Virus record (IMG/VR): IMGVR_UViG_3300042474_000722
Span: 1-37,688 of that record
DNA from: a virus
Reading direction: 5' to 3' (one strand)
DNA: 37,688 bases
Shown here: in pieces, positions 7,816 to 34,835 of the stretch
How the letters are laid out: the number at the start of each line of letters is the position of its first letter
How positions within the stretch are numbered: position 1 is the first letter of the stretch
Made by a program: the position numbers and the translations under genes
The notes under the pieces: generated by a model
What the model saw: the letters and a program-made list of their open reading frames with translations, nothing else
The model's database searches: none
Told to the model about the DNA's origin: nothing

Positions 7816-8052
7816 ATGCCAAAGGCTAAGAAAACTAGTATTGAGTTTATTACAGGAGATCTTGACAAGAGTCCGACACAGGACCGAGAAGGTTTTATTA
7901 AGATGGTTGCTCCAGAAAACTGGGCAAAAGTTAACTGTCTTGAAACTTTCTATGACGGAGAGGTCGAAGTAGTAGATGGAGTCGCCTACATTCCAGCTGA
8001 GAATACCCATTGGGTTAATCGGATGCGAATGAACGGGTATGAAGTAGCATGA
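7816..8052 (+). CDS. Small conserved-looking protein between capsid and glycosyltransferase
   Basis: 78 residues from ATG 7816; ATG 7813 is also possible but leaves only three bases to the AAGGAGG site (7803-7809), whereas 7816 leaves six. Not recognised. It is mixed alpha/beta, acidic in the middle, and ends 'AENTHWVNRMRMNGYEVA'. Its stop overlaps the next ATG (ATGA), so it is coupled to the glycosyltransferase. Its position just after the capsid gene would suit a decoration or head-completion factor, but nothing in the sequence proves that. Confidence 0.7.
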   Translation: MPKAKKTSIEFITGDLDKSPTQDREGFIKMVAPENWAKVNCLETFYDGEVEVVDGVAYIPAENTHWVNRMRMNGYEVA

Positions 8053-9233
8053 AGATCCTCATGCTCGGTGATTCACCATTTTTAAAGACTGGTTTTGGAA
8101 TCGTAAACTCAGTTGCTGTAGAGCACTTGAAGTCTGTCGGTCATCAGTTGGTGGTCATTGGAGGTCAGGACACGCAGAAGCGTGATCTTGGAAAAGGTCA
8201 TCACTACTATCCGATTGAGTCAATGCTGAAAGATGCGATTGGCTGGAAGAATGTATCAGTCACGCTTAAAAGGCATAAGATTGATGCAGTACACATCATT
8301 GCAGATCCAGCGACGGTAGTCATGTGGCTACTACGCCGAGATCTGATTAAGTACCCGATTACGGTTTACATGCCGATTGAGGGTGCTCCAATGAACTACA
8401 ACTGGGTTCAGGTGCTACAGCAGACACCGAACTTAAAAATCATTACATGCTCGCAGTATGGCGTAGATGAACTCAAGCGCAATGGACTTGAGTCAACGAT
8501 GGCATACCATGGAGTTTCTGATGACTTCTACCAGTATGAGCCAGAACACCGACGATTCCTTCGGGAGTCCGTAGGCTGGGACGACAAGTTTGTTGTTATG
8601 AATGTTGCTCAAAACGTTGAGCGTAAGCAGTGGCCTCGGCTATTCGAGGCGATCAAGATTGTAGCTTCTAAGCACCCGCAAGTGGTGCTCTACGCGCACA
8701 CCGTGCCGTTTGACAACTACCATCTTGGTGGACACGATCTCCCTCAGCTTGCTCACCAACTCGACATCGTGAATAACGTGCTCTTTTCTGGAAAGCACGC
8801 CAAGCACAATGACGCAGTTGCACTTACTTCCCATAACTATCCTGGTCTTGTTGATCTTTACAACATGGCTGACTGCTTCGTGCTGCCTTCGCAGGTCGAG
8901 GGATTCGGTCTCCCGATTGTTGAGGCAATGGCATGTGGTCTTCCTGTCGCACACACAAACTACGGCGCTGGCGCTGAAGTGATAGGTGACGCTGGGATTC
9001 TAATAGAGCCATATGACTGGGTAGTTAACAAGAGCCATAGCCGATACGCGAATCTCAGCCCTGAGTCAATCGCGGCAGAGATTGAGAAGATGTTCCTAAG
9101 TCCGTCTCTGCGAGAGCAGATGCGGGCTAAGGGAATGCAGCGTGCAAAGCATTTCTCATGGGACGACTACCGCACATCACTATGGAGGGCATTCAATGGC
9201 GAAGTTAAGACCCTTTCTAAAAACAACCAATAG
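8049..9233 (+). CDS. Glycosyltransferase, GT-B fold, GT4-like
   Basis: 394 residues. The N-terminus 'MKILMLGDSPFLKTGFGIVNS' is the beta-strand/loop of a GT-B Rossmann domain. The C-terminal donor domain shows 'VVMNVAQNVERKQWPRLFEA' and the E-x7-E signature EGFGLPIVEAMACGLPV (about residues 283-299), which binds the nucleotide-sugar donor. It would transfer a sugar from an activated donor to an acceptor in the cytoplasm. It lies in the head gene cluster, coupled by ATGA to the preceding gene, and overlaps the next gene by 38 bases. That context suggests it modifies a virion protein, perhaps the capsid, rather than DNA or cell surface; this is inference. Confidence 0.88.
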   Translation: MKILMLGDSPFLKTGFGIVNSVAVEHLKSVGHQLVVIGGQDTQKRDLGKGHHYYPIESMLKDAIGWKNVSVTLKRHKIDAVHIIADPATVVMWLLRRDLIKYPITVYMPIEGAPMNYNWVQVLQQTPNLKIITCSQYGVDELKRNGLESTMAYHGVSDDFYQYEPEHRRFLRESVGWDDKFVVMNVAQNVERKQWPRLFEAIKIVASKHPQVVLYAHTVPFDNYHLGGHDLPQLAHQLDIVNNVLFSGKHAKHNDAVALTSHNYPGLVDLYNMADCFVLPSQVEGFGLPIVEAMACGLPVAHTNYGAGAEVIGDAGILIEPYDWVVNKSHSRYANLSPESIAAEIEKMFLSPSLREQMRAKGMQRAKHFSWDDYRTSLWRAFNGEVKTLSKNNQ

Positions 9234-23710: not shown

Positions 23711-25162
23711 ATGGCTACCAAATTTCTTGCCAATCTAAACCTGAGCCAGAATGAGCTTCAGAATGCCCGCATTCAGAACCTCACGACGACTCAGATCGAT
23801 GCAATCTCTTCACCAGTCGACGGTCAGATCGTTTTTGATACGACTACTGATAAACTTAAATACTACAATGGAACTGCATGGGTTGCTGTAGATGACGGCG
23901 CTATCAAGACAGTTTCTGGTACTGCTCCTATTCAGGTCAGCACCTCTGGTTCTACCGCTACAGTTTCTATCGACGCAGCAGATGCAGATAGCGCTGGATC
24001 GATGTCCTCGACGCACTTCAACCTGGTTGACGGTGCAACGAACTCGAACACGGTTTCAACAATTGTTAAGCGAGACTCTAGCGGAAACTTTTCTGCTGGA
24101 ACGATCACCGCTGCGCTTACTGGTACTGCCTCTAACGCGAGCCAGCTAAATAACCAGAACGCATCGCACTACCTCGACCGAACAAACCACACTGGAACTC
24201 AGGCATCGAGCACCATCTCTGACCTTGCAACAACGGTTAAGGGATATCGACTTGATGAGTTTGCAACCCCAAATACGAACGTTGCATTTGGTAGCAACAG
24301 GATTACTGGTCTTGCAGATCCTCAGAATGCTCAGGACGCTGCAACCAAGGCATACGTTGACGCTTCACGACTTGGACTTGATATCAAGGATAGCGTGCGA
24401 GTTGCGACGACTGCGGCGGTCGTTCTTTCCTCTGAGCTAGAGGCTGGCGATACGCTCGACACAGTAACGCTGGTTGCTGGCAACCGAGTACTCGTTAAGA
24501 ATCAAGGCACTGCTTCTGAGAACGGAATTTACGTTGTTCAGGCAACTGGTGCTGCTGTCCGCGCTACGGACTTTGACTCTACCGCCGAAGTAACCCCTGG
24601 AGCATTCGTCTTCGTTGAAGAAGGATCTCAGGGTGACAGCGGGTGGGTTGTTACAACCGACGGCACTATCACCGTTGGATCAACTGCAATTGCATGGGCT
24701 CAGTTCTCTGGCGCTGGTCAGATTACTGCTGGCTCTGCTCTTAGTAAGTCTGGCAATACGCTTGATGTCAACGTTGATAACTCAACGATTGAAGTCTCAA
24801 GCGATGCTCTCCGCGTCAAGGACGCTGGCATCACTGCTGCAAAGCTTGCTGTTTCTGCAGTTGACCTTGCAACCTCAACGGTAACTGGAACGCTTCCTGT
24901 ACTAAACGGTGGTACTGGAGCAACGACTGCGGCTGGTGCTAAGACGAGCCTCGGGTTTATGACCCGATACACTGAGACGATCACGGCTGTGGCGAACACG
25001 CCATACACTGTGACCCATTCTCTTGGAACAAAGAACGTGATCGTAAATGTCTACGACACCAGCGACGCGATGGTAATTGCAGACATTGTAACAACGTCCA
25101 CAAACGCAATCACTCTTACCAGCAGCCTGGCTGCTGACTATCGCGTAGTAGTTATCGGCTAA
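23711..25162 (+). CDS. Tail fibre protein
   Basis: 483 residues. The N-terminus ('NLNLSQNELQNARIQNL', 'SSPVDGQIVFDTTTDKLKYYNG') is a virion-attachment module recurring in phage fibres. The middle has 'YLDRTNHTGTQASSTISDL' and 'DPQNAQDAATKAYVDASRLGLD', standard fibre-repeat signatures. The C-terminal 70 residues ('YTVTHSLGTKNVIVNVYDTSD') are a tip domain related to that of the preceding collagen-like protein. Strongly Thr/Ser/Ala-rich, as expected of a trimeric beta-fibre. No enzyme domain seen. Confidence 0.85.
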   Translation: MATKFLANLNLSQNELQNARIQNLTTTQIDAISSPVDGQIVFDTTTDKLKYYNGTAWVAVDDGAIKTVSGTAPIQVSTSGSTATVSIDAADADSAGSMSSTHFNLVDGATNSNTVSTIVKRDSSGNFSAGTITAALTGTASNASQLNNQNASHYLDRTNHTGTQASSTISDLATTVKGYRLDEFATPNTNVAFGSNRITGLADPQNAQDAATKAYVDASRLGLDIKDSVRVATTAAVVLSSELEAGDTLDTVTLVAGNRVLVKNQGTASENGIYVVQATGAAVRATDFDSTAEVTPGAFVFVEEGSQGDSGWVVTTDGTITVGSTAIAWAQFSGAGQITAGSALSKSGNTLDVNVDNSTIEVSSDALRVKDAGITAAKLAVSAVDLATSTVTGTLPVLNGGTGATTAAGAKTSLGFMTRYTETITAVANTPYTVTHSLGTKNVIVNVYDTSDAMVIADIVTTSTNAITLTSSLAADYRVVVIG

Positions 25163-26485: not shown

Positions 26486-28270
26486 ATGGCAGAACTGATC
26501 GATCTTGGTAAAATTAGGTTTGATTTCACAGGCGCATATAGCTCTGGAACAACCTATGAGCGCAATGATGTAGTGCTATATAACGGAAGCTCATATGTTT
26601 ATAAGAACGCAACATCTGCATCTGGAAATCTTCCTACAGATGTAACGTACTGGGATAAGCTTTCTCAGGGGGTAAATGTTAGCGCTGGCGACAGTGGGTA
26701 TATTCTTACCAACAATGGAACTTCAACTACCTGGACAACGAATCCATCCGTCACTACTGTCACTGCAAGCGGAGATATTACTGCTGGCGATGACCTGATT
26801 GCTTCTGACAGCGTTCTTGCTGGGTCTGGCGCGTCAACATTTTATGACAGCCTAACTAATCCTAAAACTGTTATTCAGACTTCTGCAACTGACTACGCAC
26901 AGGTTGCTTTCCGAAATACTGGAAACAGCGCAGATTCATCTACTGACTTTATTGCGTATGCAAACAATGGTACAGATGACGCTGGCTGGATCGACATGGG
27001 GATTACTGCCGCAAACTTTTCTGACGAAGAGTTCACTATTACTGGTGGTCATGACGGATATATTTTCCTAGAAGCTCCTGCTGGCACGTCTGGAAGTGGG
27101 AACCTGGTTCTTGCTACTGGCGCGAATGGTACTGAAAACAGGATTGTTTTTGCTGCTGGTGGTCTGTCAAGCGACAACACGCAAATGATTATTATCCCAG
27201 ACCAGAATATCCACATTGAAATCCCTACCGCTTCTACGAGCCCAACGACTGGCGCTCTTACTGTAGTTGGCGGAGTTGGTATCCAGGGAGATGTCAACAT
27301 TCAGGGCGCGATTTCATTCGGCGGATCTGGCACTTCGGTAACAACCGACAACCTTGCCGTAGAAGACGCAACGATTACTGTTGGATCTAACAACGTAACA
27401 GATGTTGTTGACCTTGGTCTTGTTCTTGAATACGGCATTGCAGCTACGCCATCAACAAAAACAATTACAAACAAAGCACTCACTTCAAATGTTGCAACCC
27501 TTACCACTGGCACTACCCACGGGTATGCAATTGGCGATATTGCAGTAATCACTGGTGTTGATGCAACCTTTAACGGAACGTATCCAATTGCGAGCGTTCC
27601 TACGACGACGACGTTTACCTATGCTAAGACAGCAGCGAACGTCACGTCTGCAGCTGTTTCACCTGCTGGGTCCGTTACGGTCTCGGCAAAGCGCCGATTC
27701 GGTGGAATGGTCAGGGATGCTTCTGATGGTGTTATTAAGGTATTCGAAGAGGCAACAACTAAGCCATCCAACACCGTTAACTTCAGTGAAGCTGGTCTTG
27801 TTAATGGAGACTTCCAGACTGGCGCACTTACAGCATCAACAATTTCTGCCAGCGGACTGGTAACATTTACTGGTGGATCTTCATTCACTGGAACCACAGA
27901 TGTCCAGGAAATGCGTGAACAAGTTGTAGATGTAACACTTTCTTCAAACGTCGGAACACTGAACTGGACATCGGGCAACATTTATTACATCGCTACTGCG
28001 CCAACTGGTGCAATGACGTTTAACGTAACGAATGTGCCAACCACAGCATCCCGAGTAATGACCATTAACGTGTTCGTAACTCAGGGATCTACTGGATATA
28101 TCCCAACAACGTTCCAAATTGACGGATCAAGCCAGACTCTTAAATGGGCTGGTGGATCTACGCCATCTGCAACAAACGGAGCTGGAAAAATTGACGTTTT
28201 CACCTTTACAATGATGCGCACAAGCGGCGGATCTTGGATCGTATACGGCGGAGCAATGAACAACTTCTAG
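26486..28270 (+). CDS. Tail fibre A with carbohydrate-binding-like N-terminus (cassette 1)
   Basis: 594 residues. About 12-60 ('FTGAYSSGTTYERNDVVLYNGSSYVYKN') looks like a CBM5/12-type chitin-binding fold. The long middle is Thr/Ser/Gly-rich fibre; 'GGVGIQGDVNIQGAISFGG' repeats are typical of trimeric shafts. The last 125 residues ('LNWTSGNIYYIATAPTG', 'TQGSTGYIPTTFQIDGSSQ', 'SGGSWIVYGGAMNNF') closely match the end of the later fibre at 29380. It is followed eight bases later by a Gly-rich adhesin, forming a two-gene unit that recurs downstream. Confidence 0.85.
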   Translation: MAELIDLGKIRFDFTGAYSSGTTYERNDVVLYNGSSYVYKNATSASGNLPTDVTYWDKLSQGVNVSAGDSGYILTNNGTSTTWTTNPSVTTVTASGDITAGDDLIASDSVLAGSGASTFYDSLTNPKTVIQTSATDYAQVAFRNTGNSADSSTDFIAYANNGTDDAGWIDMGITAANFSDEEFTITGGHDGYIFLEAPAGTSGSGNLVLATGANGTENRIVFAAGGLSSDNTQMIIIPDQNIHIEIPTASTSPTTGALTVVGGVGIQGDVNIQGAISFGGSGTSVTTDNLAVEDATITVGSNNVTDVVDLGLVLEYGIAATPSTKTITNKALTSNVATLTTGTTHGYAIGDIAVITGVDATFNGTYPIASVPTTTTFTYAKTAANVTSAAVSPAGSVTVSAKRRFGGMVRDASDGVIKVFEEATTKPSNTVNFSEAGLVNGDFQTGALTASTISASGLVTFTGGSSFTGTTDVQEMREQVVDVTLSSNVGTLNWTSGNIYYIATAPTGAMTFNVTNVPTTASRVMTINVFVTQGSTGYIPTTFQIDGSSQTLKWAGGSTPSATNGAGKIDVFTFTMMRTSGGSWIVYGGAMNNF

Positions 28271-28278
28271 GAGGAGTT

Positions 28279-29364
28279 ATGCCTCTACTTTCAACAGTTC
28301 GAGGGTCATATGGACCACAAGGGAGATTTCAAGCAAAAGGACAATTGTATTCGTTTACAACGCATACATTTACAAATGCTGGAAAGTTCGGTAGGTTTGG
28401 TCCGACTTTAGCGCAAATGCTTTCTGCTTATTCTGCAGCTTCTTGGACAACAAATAGTGAATATTTTAATATTGGCAGAGCAGACGGATATCAATTGTGG
28501 ACAGTTCCAGCAACTGGGATCTACTCCATCACTGCTCGGGGTGCTCAGGGAAGCTACGGAAACCAGACTGATCCAGGTCTTGGAGCTGTTATTACGGCAA
28601 GATTTAACTTAACAGTTGGTCAAAAACTAGAAATGGTTGTTGGTCAAGCACCTGGCAATACTGCAGATCAACAAATTATCGCAGCATCTGGCGCAGCTGC
28701 TGGTGGCGGAGGATCATTTGTATGCCTTGGATCAACAAATACCCCACTTCTGATCGCTGGTGGCGGAGGGGGGCAATATACCACTAATGTTGGTCGTGAA
28801 TATCGAGACGGTCAAAATAGGCGACAGCCAATTTGGGTAGGAGGCTATAGCCCAGCTTCATCAGGAACCCACCCAGTAAACGGCTATGGCGGATCTGGAT
28901 ACCATGCTGGCGGTGGCGGCGGTTTGCTTGGCGCAGGAATTGCATATCCAGGACGGACAGTTGCCGATGCAAGCGCTATTACTGATACAAGAGGTCAGCA
29001 ATATACGCTCGGAGGATCATTTAGCGGTTCTAGCGAATTCGGAACCTGGTATGCAACTGGTGGTGGTATGTCTGGCTATACAAACGTTGGCGGTGGATTC
29101 GGTGGCGGTGGCGGCGGTCACAGCGGAAACAACGCTGCAGGCGGTGGCGGTGGCTACTCTGGTGGTCATGGCGGTCAAACGACCCTTGGTGGAACTTTTA
29201 ATGATGGTATTGGAGGCGGTTCATTTATTGACTCAACCGCAACAAATGTTGCTACCAATACAGGATTGTACGATGGCTCAAGCACATTCAATGGCGTAGC
29301 CATCACTAACAATAATTTGTTCAATACCCTTGATGGAAGTATTATAATTACTCTAATTTCCTAA
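28279..29364 (+). CDS. Glycine-rich tail-tip adhesin (cassette 1)
   Basis: 361 residues from ATG 28279, which has AGGAGG upstream and follows the previous stop closely. The N-terminus 'MPLLSTVRGSYGPQGRFQA' is shared with the second cassette. A beta domain follows (about 75-130), then repeated glycine tracts ('AAGGGGSFVCLG', 'LLIAGGGGG', 'GGGFGGGGGGHSGNNAAGGGGG'). Such tracts pack as polyglycine-II sandwiches in S16/T2 gp38-type adhesins and vary at their loops to set receptor choice. Assignment rests on composition and position. Confidence 0.8.
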   Translation: MPLLSTVRGSYGPQGRFQAKGQLYSFTTHTFTNAGKFGRFGPTLAQMLSAYSAASWTTNSEYFNIGRADGYQLWTVPATGIYSITARGAQGSYGNQTDPGLGAVITARFNLTVGQKLEMVVGQAPGNTADQQIIAASGAAAGGGGSFVCLGSTNTPLLIAGGGGGQYTTNVGREYRDGQNRRQPIWVGGYSPASSGTHPVNGYGGSGYHAGGGGGLLGAGIAYPGRTVADASAITDTRGQQYTLGGSFSGSSEFGTWYATGGGMSGYTNVGGGFGGGGGGHSGNNAAGGGGGYSGGHGGQTTLGGTFNDGIGGGSFIDSTATNVATNTGLYDGSSTFNGVAITNNNLFNTLDGSIIITLIS

Positions 29365-29379
29365 GAAGTGGAGATACAA

Positions 29380-30252
29380 ATGGAAGCAACGGTAAATTTC
29401 TTTCTAAGCCCGCAGGACCAGGAAGCATCTCTACAGATTCGTCGTGCGACCTCGAGCCAATGGGATGCAGATAATCCAGTGCTTCTTGAGGGTGAACTAG
29501 GGGTCGACACTACGACTGGCTTTATTAAGGTCGGGAATGGTGTCGACGGCTGGTCCTCTCTTCTGCCACAGGCACAACTAACAAACGAAATTAATAGCAC
29601 CTCTACAACCGTTGGGGCAAGCGCTCTTGCGGTAAAGACTGCCTATGACCATGCAGCGAGTGCAATCCGTCCTTCAATCATTGACGCAAAGGGCGATCTC
29701 ATCGTTGGATCTGCAGCTGATACAGCTGTAAATGTACCAATCGGCTCGGATAACAGCGTTCTAGTTGCAAACTCTTTGGCTGCTTCTGGTGTATCGTGGT
29801 CTCCTTCAATTTCTCTTGCTGGAGCAGCAACATTTAATGGCGCATCAGTTTTCAATAACTCTGCAACTTTTAATGGAACATTAAATGCACAAGAGCTTTC
29901 AGAAACTGTAGTCCCAGTAACGCTTTCTTCAAATACTGCTTCTCTTGATTGGTCATCTGGAAATGTATATTACATCTCCGTTGCACCGACTGGCAATATG
30001 ACATTTAACTTAACTAATGTTCCAGTTGAACAAAATACAATTAAAACAATAAATGTCATTGTAACACAGGGAAGTACTGGCTATATCCCAACGTCAATTA
30101 ATATAAATAGTTCATCGCAAACCATTCGGTGGTCTGGTGGACTTGCAGCGAATCCAACTTCTTCATCTGGGAAGATTGATATCTTTATAATTTCTCTACA
30201 CCGTACAGCCAGTGCATGGATCGTTTACGCCTCAGCAGCTAATAATTTCTAA
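29380..30252 (+). CDS. Tail fibre B (cassette 2)
   Basis: 290 residues from ATG 29380 (GGAG six bases upstream). Residues about 18-65 ('LQIRRATSSQWDADNP', 'GELGVDTTTGFIKVGNGVDGW') resemble the N-terminal docking domain of phage major-tropism-type fibres. The C-terminal 125 residues correspond to those of the fibre at 26486, more than half identical by eye, including 'VTQGSTGYIPT' and a 'NNF' end. The shaft between is much shorter than in cassette 1. Confidence 0.85.
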   Translation: MEATVNFFLSPQDQEASLQIRRATSSQWDADNPVLLEGELGVDTTTGFIKVGNGVDGWSSLLPQAQLTNEINSTSTTVGASALAVKTAYDHAASAIRPSIIDAKGDLIVGSAADTAVNVPIGSDNSVLVANSLAASGVSWSPSISLAGAATFNGASVFNNSATFNGTLNAQELSETVVPVTLSSNTASLDWSSGNVYYISVAPTGNMTFNLTNVPVEQNTIKTINVIVTQGSTGYIPTSININSSSQTIRWSGGLAANPTSSSGKIDIFIISLHRTASAWIVYASAANNF

Positions 30253-30260
30253 GGAGATAT

Positions 30261-31199
30261 ATGCCACTACTTTCTAGCGTACGAGGTTCATTTGGTCCTC
30301 AAGGAAGATATACAGCTGGTTCAAAAATTTTTGCTACTGGTGGAGATATTGTAGGCTCCTATGATGGGTATCGATATCACATTTTTAATAACTCTGGAAC
30401 GTTGACAGTAACTCAGTCCTCAACTACAGCGCCTGTACAAATTATCCTTGTAGGCGCTGGAGGAAATGGAAACTCTGGATCTTCATCTGGTCCTGGCGGT
30501 GGCGCTGGTGCATTGTACTGGAGAACTAATTTTCTTATTACTGCAACTGGGGATTACCCGATAGTTATCGGGCAGCCAGGTGCTACTCGGTATACGAACA
30601 CTAGCGCTTCTACATCTAGTACTGATGCTCGAGGCGGAAATACAACTGCCTTTGGCATTATTGCATATGGAGGTGGCGGAGCAGGATGGGCTGACGGCAC
30701 TTCAAGTGCTGGTCCATTTGGAAACCTAACTCAATCAATTATGGGTGACGGTGGCTCTGGTGCTGGTGGGTATAATGGTGCAAATATTAACGCACACCCA
30801 GACGGATCTGGTACTTATTTGTTTGGGCGATCTGTAGTAACTGGTCTTCAATACTATTACGGTAATAACTCTGGCGACGGCGGCAGTTCATCTGGCGGCG
30901 GCGGCGGCGGAGCTGGCGCAGTCGGAGACAATGAAGGTCCAGCTGGCTCAGGTGGAGCTGGCGGAGCGGGAATGTCTTTTAACTGGACAGGAACAACGCA
31001 GTGGCTCGCTGGTGGTGGCGGCGCAGGCGGCGGGACTAATGGTCGAACGGGAGGATCTGGTGTCGGCGGAAACGGCGGATCTGGTGCGGTAAGCGGTACA
31101 AACGGAGTTGCAAACACAGGATCTGGCGGCGGCGGATCTGGATCTGGTACACCAGGATTCGGTTCGGCTGGAACAGTCTGGATTAGGTACTCAGCATAA
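30261..31199 (+). CDS. Glycine-rich tail-tip adhesin (cassette 2)
   Basis: 312 residues; AAGGAG stands before the ATG. It begins 'MPLLSSVRGSFGPQGRYTA', nearly identical to the first cassette's adhesin, and has the same beta domain followed by glycine tracts ('GGGGAGWADGTSSAG', 'SSGGGGGGAGAVGD', 'AGGGGAGGGTNGRTGGSG'). The two adhesins differ widely in their inter-glycine loops, where receptor contacts would lie. It is the last fibre gene before the lysis region. Confidence 0.8.
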   Translation: MPLLSSVRGSFGPQGRYTAGSKIFATGGDIVGSYDGYRYHIFNNSGTLTVTQSSTTAPVQIILVGAGGNGNSGSSSGPGGGAGALYWRTNFLITATGDYPIVIGQPGATRYTNTSASTSSTDARGGNTTAFGIIAYGGGGAGWADGTSSAGPFGNLTQSIMGDGGSGAGGYNGANINAHPDGSGTYLFGRSVVTGLQYYYGNNSGDGGSSSGGGGGGAGAVGDNEGPAGSGGAGGAGMSFNWTGTTQWLAGGGGAGGGTNGRTGGSGVGGNGGSGAVSGTNGVANTGSGGGGSGSGTPGFGSAGTVWIRYSA

Positions 31200-31644: not shown

Positions 31645-31665
31645 ACATACCCTGAGGAGGTGCGT

Positions 31666-32883
31666 ATGAACCGACTCAGAGTTACTATAGTAACCACGAT
31701 TATCTTTACTGCCGCGTTTACTGCGGCACTATTCTCCGCCACCCCAGTCAAGGGACTGGAAGATGCGGATAACTGGGATCAGCAGGTTGATGCTAACGGC
31801 ACGATTACGCTGACCGATGGAACGATTCTTATTGAAGGCAGCAACTACCCAAGTGGTGTTGGATTGCCAGATCAACTGTGGCAGAACACTGTCACAGGAA
31901 TCACGACTGATTCTTCGCAAGGAGAGACGGTCACATTCGCATGGTCATACTGGACAACCGATAACGCATACTTTGACCGACCACAAATGCTTCTTGATGG
32001 GGCATGGTCAGACCTCGCTAATGGCGTGCAGTCTGCTGGCGGTACGGTCCAGGTCTATGTTACGGCAAGTGGCGCTTTCGGATTTAGAGTCCTCTCATTG
32101 GACTCATGCTGTGGCGCTGGCTACCTACAGATCTCGGATACCTCTTGGGTAATCGGGTCTCCCGTAGAGCCTAGCCCAAGCCAAGAACCAACCCCAGAAC
32201 CAACCCCAGAACCAACCCCGACTCCTGAGCCGACACCAGAGCCAACGCCTGAGCCGACACCGACTCCTGAGCCTACGCCTGAGCCCACGCCAGAGCCAAC
32301 ACTGCCACCTACTCCTGAGCCCACGCCAGAGCCAGAACCAGAGCCGACTGTAGAGCCGACTCCTGAGCCTGAGCCTGAGCCTGAGCCAGAGCCAACGGCA
32401 GAACCAAGCGAGGAGCCGTCAATTGAACCAGAACCAGAGCCAGAGCCGTCTACCGAACCCGAACCGTCGCCCGAAGAAACAGAGGAGCCTGAAGAGTCTC
32501 CTGTGGTATCTCCTGATCCCACTGATGTACCTGATCCTGAATCCGAATCCTATTTGCCAGATCTAGGCGACGTAGGAGAAGCGGTTGAGGCTGTGGCAGA
32601 GGCTATCGGAGAAACATTCGAGGCTATCGGAGAAACATTCGGAGAGACTTTAGAAGCGGTGGTAAATCTTGGCGATGACCTTTCCGAAGAGGAGAGAGAA
32701 GAAGTCCAAGCACCAATTGTATCAGCGATTATCGTAACGCAAGTCGCTCAAGCGGCTGTCTCGATGGCTATTGCTGCACGACCAACACCTCCAAGCGCAC
32801 CAACCCCAACGCCTTCAGGCGGTGGCGGAGCGCCTGTCGGTGATGCAAAAAGTAGTGGATCAACGAAGAGGAGCCGTCAATGA
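31666..32883 (+). CDS. Secreted protein with Pro/Glu/Thr rod and C-terminal hydrophobic segment
   Basis: 405 residues from ATG 31666 (GAGGAGG five bases upstream). Residues 1-30 are a signal peptide ('[20 protein letters not shown]'). About 38-160 is a beta-sandwich-like domain with a vicinal CC pair ('[13 protein letters not shown]'). About 167-295 is a rod of EPTP/EPEP repeats. About 300-345 is acidic helix with a [17 protein letters not shown] repeat. About 347-373 is hydrophobic ('[21 protein letters not shown]') and may span a membrane. The tail is basic. The plan could bridge the cell wall, as spanin-type or wall-anchoring proteins do. It sits between holin candidates and overlaps the next gene by ATGA. 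No lipobox seen. Confidence 0.75.
32161..32500 (+). repeat. Degenerate short tandem repeats coding Pro-Glu-Thr rod
   Basis: The DNA is built of CCNGAGCC and CCNACNCC units repeated with silent variation across about 340 bases. It encodes the rod of the secreted protein and could expand or contract by slippage, changing rod length. Confidence 0.8.
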
Positions 32884-33987: not shown

Positions 33988-34029
33988 AACTCGCCCCTCT
34001 CAGGCTTCGTGCTTGAGGGGGGCAGTTTT
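33988..34029. terminator. Bidirectional intrinsic terminator between convergent operons
   Basis: A 13-bp stem (33993-34005 with 34011-34023, two G-T wobbles, loop TTCGT) is extended by AACT/AGTT across a one-base bulge. A T-rich run follows on the plus side, and AAAAA at 33980-33984 gives a T-run on the minus side. It ends both the late lysis transcript and the early minus-strand operon. The stop codon of the methyltransferase lies inside the stem. Confidence 0.85.
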
Positions 34030-34650
34030 GTGTTTCCTGTAGATAAAGAAGCGCCCGACCCAATCTGTTCCGTCAAATGATTCATCAAGTGCCACTTCGC
34101 TTCGGTGAATAGGAAGCCACTGTGGATGACGTTCGGCGATGGTCTTTTCCCACCACTCACGGCTTTTCATTGTGATATGCGTTGCATCAGCATCGTCGTG
34201 TGCCGATGCTCCGTCTGACAAGGCAATCCTCAGCCAGATTTCCCCGCCGACCTTTGCCACGCGGTTCATGTCGTCAAGTATGTCATTGATCTTGCCCTCT
34301 GGGATGTGCTCAAAGAATTCCCATGATGAGACAATATCAAAAACATTGCTTGCGTATGGCAAGCCATATTCCACGTTGGCAACAGTGAGTGCACCCTTAG
34401 CCATCGGAGCGCAGTTGTCTACGGCATAGCGGCTTATGTCTACGCCAAGTGCCTCGTGCCCACGCATATTGCAATGGTGCACGAACCAGCCCTTTGCTGC
34501 CCCTACATCAAGGATGGTAAGACCGCGCATGCCATGAGGCTCTTCAATGAGGTTGATAATCTCATTCCAGCGCGGGTCGTCAGAGTAGTTCTTATAGTTA
34601 GAGCCTTCTGCGCGCTCAAAGTACCCTTCGCCGTATTGCTCATTAGCCAT
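34000..34650 (-). CDS. SAM-dependent methyltransferase, class I
   Basis: 216 residues from ATG 34650, which overlaps the stop of the upstream ribbon gene (TAATG). Motif I 'ILDVGAAKGWFVHH' binds SAM; 'ALGVDIS' supplies the acidic residue for the ribose; 'FDIVSSWEFFEHIPEG' matches motif IV of Methyltransf_11/23 proteins. The type commonly acts on small molecules, lipids, sugars or proteins; no DNA-methylase motif (NPPY/DPPY) is seen. Last gene of the minus-strand operon. Substrate unknown. Confidence 0.85.
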   Translation of the reverse strand: MANEQYGEGYFERAEGSNYKNYSDDPRWNEIINLIEEPHGMRGLTILDVGAAKGWFVHHCNMRGHEALGVDISRYAVDNCAPMAKGALTVANVEYGLPYASNVFDIVSSWEFFEHIPEGKINDILDDMNRVAKVGGEIWLRIALSDGASAHDDADATHITMKSREWWEKTIAERHPQWLPIHRSEVALDESFDGTDWVGRFFIYRKHKTAPLKHEA

Positions 34651-34835
34651 TAGTCTTCCCTTCTCCTGTCCTTCTTTGCCCACCCTTCGCCCTTGTACCT
34701 AACTGCAGGTACAGAGAAGATGCGCTTCATTTTTGTGTTGTCGTCTGGACAACGGACTTCTTTTACGACGCTCATTGAGTGCTCCTGCTCTATGATCAGG
34801 TCGCACTTCTTGCAGATGTATTCGTATGTTGGCAT
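34650..34835 (-). CDS. FmdB-type zinc-ribbon protein
   Basis: 61 residues beginning 'MPTYEYICKKCDLIIEQEHSM', the typical FmdB opening, with 'VRCPDD' later and a late 'AVRYKGEGWAKKD'. Two Cys of the first knuckle are present (CKKC) but the second knuckle reads CPDD, lacking the usual second cysteine; Asp may substitute or zinc may not bind. No clear ribosome site; it begins two bases after the small membrane protein stop, so translation is probably coupled. Confidence 0.8.
   Translation of the reverse strand: MPTYEYICKKCDLIIEQEHSMSVVKEVRCPDDNTKMKRIFSVPAVRYKGEGWAKKDRRRED

Follow-up and report, generated by a model that had tools for sequence, protein, structure and literature searches.

Two fibre–adhesin pairs in the window

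The window, the whole 37,688-nucleotide stretch of IMG/VR virus record IMGVR_UViG_3300042474_000722 that was analysed, contains four consecutive, co-directional genes on its plus strand that encode two putative distal fibre proteins, each followed by a Gly-rich adhesin. Fibre protein A (fibA, 26486–28270, 594 residues) is made up of an IDLG/CBM_5_12-like N-terminal module, for which the match is weak (CBM_5_12, E = 7e-4, below the cut-off), a shaft and, at its extreme C-terminus, a candidate socket domain of ~130 residues (27878–28267), termed here the type-I C-terminal domain (CTD), which belongs to phrog_5906 (unknown function). In the downstream adhesin A (adhA, 28279–29364, 361 residues), residues 1–16 (28279–28326, MPLLSTVRGSYGPQGR) define a putative docking tag, and residues 23–125 match the TNF-like/Gly-rich ectodomain of ALK/LTK. 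Fibre protein B (fibB) starts either at ATG 29380 (29380–30252, 290 residues) or at GTG 29368 (294 residues) and is composed of an Mtd_N anchor (E = 2.4e-12), a Phage_fiber_2 repeat, a short shaft and a type-I CTD (29860–30249). It is followed by adhesin B (adhB, 30261–31199, 312 residues), in which the tag (residues 1–16, 30261–30308, MPLLSSVRGSFGPQGR) is joined to a Gly_rich_2 body (E = 8.8e-12). Both fibre–adhesin gaps are 8 nt, and the Shine–Dalgarno sequence of adhA overlaps the fibA stop codon.

The alignment of fibA with fibB covers their very C-termini (residues 452–594 and 143–290; 149 columns, 53.7% identity, E ~1e-48), and that of adhA with adhB is confined to the first ~48 residues (39.6% identity, E = 1e-7), within which residues 1–16 are nearly identical. 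The two adhesins have the consensus start MPLLS(T/S)VRGS(Y/F)GPQGR and little else in common. The preliminary description had noted two pairs with common fibre segments at 27893–28267 and 29876–30249 and common adhesin starts; the pairs are real, both segments falling inside the aligned C-termini, and the remaining parts differ, the N-terminal modules of the fibres being unrelated and the adhesin heads not close. As fibA and fibB begin with different modules, the doubled part comprises only the fibre CTD and the adhesin start. A repeat finder applied to the DNA did not detect this shared part, which is too diverged at that level, so that the conservation lies in the protein, where it is far beyond chance.

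Elsewhere in the window, genes for a terminase (nearest record only ~32% identical), portal, major head protein, head–tail adaptor and tape measure were found, and no sheath is present among the proteins scanned; a siphovirus morphology is plausible. A third fibre-like or decoration protein without a type-I CTD is encoded upstream of the pairs (23711–25162; phrog_2647, E = 2e-57), and a 407-residue protein that contains a long Pro/Glu/Thr repeat of the PTPEP type and has no PHROGs match lies just past the adhesins (31660–32883). A glycosyltransferase-like gene (8049–9233; phrog_2170, E = 1.6e-31) sits amid the head/connector genes, and a methyltransferase-like gene (34000–34683, minus strand; phrog_27380, E = 1.5e-39) is oriented opposite to the structural genes.

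The fibre C-terminal domain and its relatives

Searches with the fibA CTD retrieved 15 viral contigs, a CTD profile retrieved 80 loci (with overlap), and tblastn retrieved 21 phage records, mostly of cyanophages; none of the bacterial genome contigs encoded a relative. The CTD of locus L003, 75% identical to that of fibA, is predicted to be an all-beta domain with pLDDT >90. This fold had no significant match in the PDB, the best being T4 gp10 (E = 0.045), and has many predicted viral relatives, several of which are named tail fibre. Fibres of cyanophages and roseophages (S-BM3, Syn30 and CRP-3) and of phage DSL-LC01 carry a CTD related by both tblastn and fold and, as in the window, a nearby next gene with an MP-type start. 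They differ from the window pairs in CTD identity (≤45%) and in their diverged tags, and the heads of this group include SPRY-annotated and YHYH proteins.

Linkage and covariation of tag and CTD

Among nonredundant CTD ends with E <1e-35 and a following open reading frame (n = 75), the tag stands at the start of the next gene in all 75, including L047, where the adhesin starts with GTG. The spacing ranges from −1 to +23 nt, mostly 7–12 nt, and in 52/75 cases the Shine–Dalgarno sequence directly adjoins or overlaps the stop codon of the fibre gene. For CTDs with E >1e-35, which are mostly from isolates, the MP-type starts are looser; the departures are L100, in which a short open reading frame intervenes after the CTD fibre, L101, and the first L105 copy, in which another CTD protein comes next. 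In L072 (from 1269), the tag follows the CTD but the adhesin reading frame is soon interrupted, which reflects either decay of the adhesin or a fault in the assembly.

The linkage was also examined in reverse, with a degenerate DNA pattern for MPF[IV][SN]S[VI]RG[ST][FY]G applied to viral contigs blind to the CTD. This tag-only pattern gave 35 sites, 30 of which have a CTD stop codon 4–23 nt upstream; four others (L116, L119, L130 and the second L117 site) are later adhesins of tandem rows, and the remaining one (L132) lies on a contig cut 57 bases upstream. The contigs of the forward and reverse tests largely overlap, and the two are therefore not independent samples.

The information content of the tag is high at residues 2–16 and lower beyond. 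With five-fold cross-validation, 55 of the 69 unique tags scored >10, approximately half of the lowest-scoring ones coming from distant CTDs, and the 11 control gene starts (n = 185) that scored >10 are all themselves tag adhesins, the others scoring −4 or less. Tag similarity follows CTD similarity (rho 0.51, or 0.46 as a partial correlation given the adhesin body), whereas similarity in the remaining adhesin sequence shows no such trend (partial correlation of CTD and body given the tag, 0.03); shared descent could be a partial cause of this covariation. No paper describing the tag was found in a literature search, many journals being outside its coverage.

A second CTD–tag type and rows of adhesins

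In two loci, L007 (76–2761) and L008 (1–3382), a fibre with a second CTD type, ending in ...LLIGNLAA, is encoded in phages that also have a type-I pair. This second fibre, which is encoded upstream, has a shaft like that of fibA and no type-I CTD, and the gene after it starts MPLL(L/F)GNTA instead of with the type-I tag. Scanning for the type-II C-terminus revealed additional examples, in which the next genes have hydrophobic starts of loose similarity, such as MPLLLGVIAASG and MTYPILFGVMAGQGG; all of these are negative under the type-I tag profile. Most of the more distant type-II fibres have no adjoining adhesin gene; those of L149, L150, L152, L153 and L155–L157 are followed instead by a noncoding stretch that these loci have in common (AACCTAAACTTAAGGTT...) and that may be a terminator or promoter.

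Both heads of L007 are Gly-rich, yet their tags differ, each matching its CTD. Conversely, related heads occur under both tags, the type-II head of L027 resembling the type-I heads of L027 and L052, and the type-II head of L145 resembling the type-I head of L011. The second type, together with the heads shared between types, is the strongest argument that the tag belongs to the CTD rather than to the head.

Two or three tag adhesins stand behind a single CTD fibre in L009 (5388–7331), L022 (3403–6362)/L024, L036 (3401–5325), L047 (3401–5874), L071 (3389–5436) and L084. The heads in the L022 row differ from one another.

Adhesin heads

The bodies behind the type-I tag form 38 blastp-unlinked groups, a number that overcounts the folds because Gly-rich sequence was filtered. 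Most bodies are Gly-rich; the others include He_PIG Ig (3e-14; L044 and L070) and fn3 (1.5e-11; L087) domains, and further heads have weak Fibrinogen_C (L027 and L047) or YHYH (L099) matches. Mapped onto the CTD tree, the Gly-rich state requires 12 changes, at least 6 of which are forced by well-supported branches.

In adhA and adhB, Gly accounts for 23–29% of residues, and the stretches that vary relative to the near-identical phage L001 lie between Gly motifs. By sequence, adhA matches ALK with E = 1e-8, and the Pfam family ALK_LTK_GRD with 5e-4, below the cut-off. The model of adhB (pLDDT 77.7, ~49 in the tag) has as its best match among solved structures the TNF-like/Gly-rich head of the Pam3 fibre gp24 (7ypx, E = 1.5e-5, probability 1.00), with modest TM-scores of 0.40–0.48; the next matches are the Bxb1 tail-tip protein (9d93_Qa, E = 9e-5), LTK (1.5e-3) and ALK.

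Divergence from a near-identical phage

The comparison with L001, a single genome pair on which both the island and the dN/dS values below are based, showed ~95–99% identity in the fibA–adhA region and 97–100% just downstream of adhB, whereas identity drops to 63–85% in an island at ~29650–31170 (plus strand). This island extends from approximately residue 97 of fibB almost to the end of adhB, with its left edge between 29593 and 29670 and its right edge at ~31166–31195. Within it, dS is 1.33 in fibB residues 96–290 and ~1.0 in adhB residues 49–312, compared with values near 0 to 0.07 in fibB residues 1–95 (which have no synonymous change), fibA and the upstream genes. We read the island as a probable block exchange of CTD and adhesin together; a search for donors of the B allele found only the diverged copy in L001.

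In cassette A, dN/dS is 0.13 for fibA (~12 nonsynonymous and 28 synonymous changes) and 0.99 for adhA (40 and 14), a contrast with Fisher p = 3e-5 for the whole of adhA and ~1.6e-6 for its head. The head by itself (residues 131–361) has dN/dS of 1.62 (31 to 7), not significant versus neutrality (p = 0.18). The two cassettes appear to diversify in different ways, B through the exchange of a block and A through point changes within its Gly-rich head. Diversification of adhA by an Mtd-type diversity-generating retroelement was rejected, as the changes are not adenine-restricted and 21/54 differences from L001 involve no A; phase-variable inversion was likewise rejected, the region having only weak inverted repeats (71–75%). 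The comparison depicts one phage with two different heads, each diversifying, and the two receptor specificities suggested in the preliminary description are plausible.

That the cassettes arose by tandem duplication, as had also been suggested, is not established and, as a statement about whole cassettes, was rejected, the junction alone being common to both. A simple tandem duplication within this phage lineage followed by divergence would account for the same CTD type and the same tag in A and B, and the AU test does not reject a tree constrained to unite the two CTDs (p = 0.31). We nevertheless consider it unlikely, given the unrelated N-terminal modules, the distance between the adhA and adhB heads, and a 66-row CTD tree in which the A and B CTDs are not sisters but form separate branches, both already present in L001.

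Comparison with known adhesin systems

As in the gp37–gp38 system of T2 and S16, whose distal fibre is capped by a polyglycine adhesin with hypervariable loops, the adhesin gene of each pair lies directly downstream of a distal fibre gene, and a conserved adhesin N-terminus precedes a variable Gly-rich head. In this system, gp38 interacts through its N-terminus with gp37, and function is restored by chimeras (PMC12892980); its attachment domain has three helices with conserved tryptophans, and S16 gp38 is present as a single copy on the trimer (PMC6851490). The T2/PP01 gp38 chimera swapped 113 N-terminal residues, whereas only ~16 are conserved in the window adhesins, which have no Trp in residues 1–25, and no helix is predicted for the adhB N-terminus. 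Heads behind the type-I tag are often not Gly-rich, unlike those of T2/S16 gp38. Moreover, gp38 is absent from the PDB sequence matches and from the listed fold matches of adhB, and the fibre CTD has no PDB sequence match to gp37. The gp37/gp38-type system proposed in the preliminary description therefore stands as a likeness of layout and not as membership of that family, the tryptophan-bearing three-helix domain being absent and the PDB sequence and fold searches giving no gp37 or gp38 match.

Pam3 gp24 is a trimer whose chain also includes a helical domain for docking to the baseplate (PMC9608196). Its head is TNF-like and Gly-rich, as in the adhB model, and its docking domain is replaced in the window adhesins by the tag and a separate fibre; because gp24 is trimeric, such a head could conceivably sit as a trimer on a trimeric fibre. 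The Bxb1 tail-tip Gly-rich protein and the ALK/LTK ectodomain are alike in head fold only, their context being different.

A proposed plug-and-socket model of head attachment

The best explanation, and in our judgement a likely one, is that a distal fibre with a socket CTD is capped by the adhesin, the 16-residue tag being the plug and the rest the receptor-binding head. Each pair would then consist of a distal tail fibre and the adhesin capping it, the type-I CTD would form a conserved socket at the fibre end, and adhesin residues 1–16 would plug into this socket, leaving the remainder of the protein as the head. As the tag alone would have to match, heads of unrelated fold would be exchangeable on one fibre type. 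The different N-terminal anchors of fibA and fibB, combined with the same socket type, suggest that virions probably display two heads.

It had been proposed that the conserved parts are those that dock fibre to adhesin. Structure prediction gave a confident CTD, and in a single tethered chain of the L003 CTD and tag, read through the stop codon, the tag was disordered (pLDDT ~40) and made no contact; since a monomer cannot show docking on a trimer, this model is neither contrary to docking nor support for it. By comparison among loci, the idea finds good support and extends further than first proposed, the two-way linkage, the covariation and the second CTD–tag type all pointing to a matched socket and plug. 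We infer physical docking, the presence of the adhesins in virions and receptor binding; the two pairs may be able to cross-match.

The absence of contact in the prediction would also fit a tag that attaches the adhesin to a different part of the virion, the baseplate or another fibre, the link to the CTD being one of gene order only. Tag similarity tracks CTD similarity, and two tag types within one phage sort with the CTD immediately upstream, making this very unlikely. Gene position, and the precedent of Pam3 gp24 with its chaperone gp25 (PMC9608196), would suit downstream proteins that act like T4 gp38/Tfa as fibre chaperones, contacting the CTD through the tag while it folds and leaving afterwards. 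The bodies have a variety of folds used in host recognition (Gly-rich, fn3 and Ig, with lectin-like ones under the second tag), adhB resembles the fibre head and not gp25, and the adhA protein evolves much faster than fibA, unlike a conserved chaperone; we regard such a role as decidedly unlikely.

A recombination or translation-coupling sequence at the junction, with the tag kept for its DNA sequence rather than as a binding peptide, would explain why the fibre stop so often meets the Shine–Dalgarno sequence and why the block exchanged relative to L001 takes in the junction. It seems barely credible in view of the strong divergence of the A and B CTD DNA with the protein kept, the recurrence of the tag in second and third adhesins away from any CTD, and the way in which tag type follows CTD type.

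Extending the socket-and-plug reading beyond the window, we give even odds to a plug-and-socket system of aquatic phages with at least two CTD–tag pairs, side by side in some, in which heads of any fold are exchanged, adhesins stand in rows and virions are maybe mosaics of heads. If the proposed docking is correct, a 16-residue sequence would be enough to recognise, regardless of fold, the receptor-binding heads of many uncultured aquatic phages, which are currently annotated as hypothetical proteins. The model would also offer an explanation, open to direct testing, of why fibres and adhesins remain matched despite head turnover and of how one phage may have several heads.
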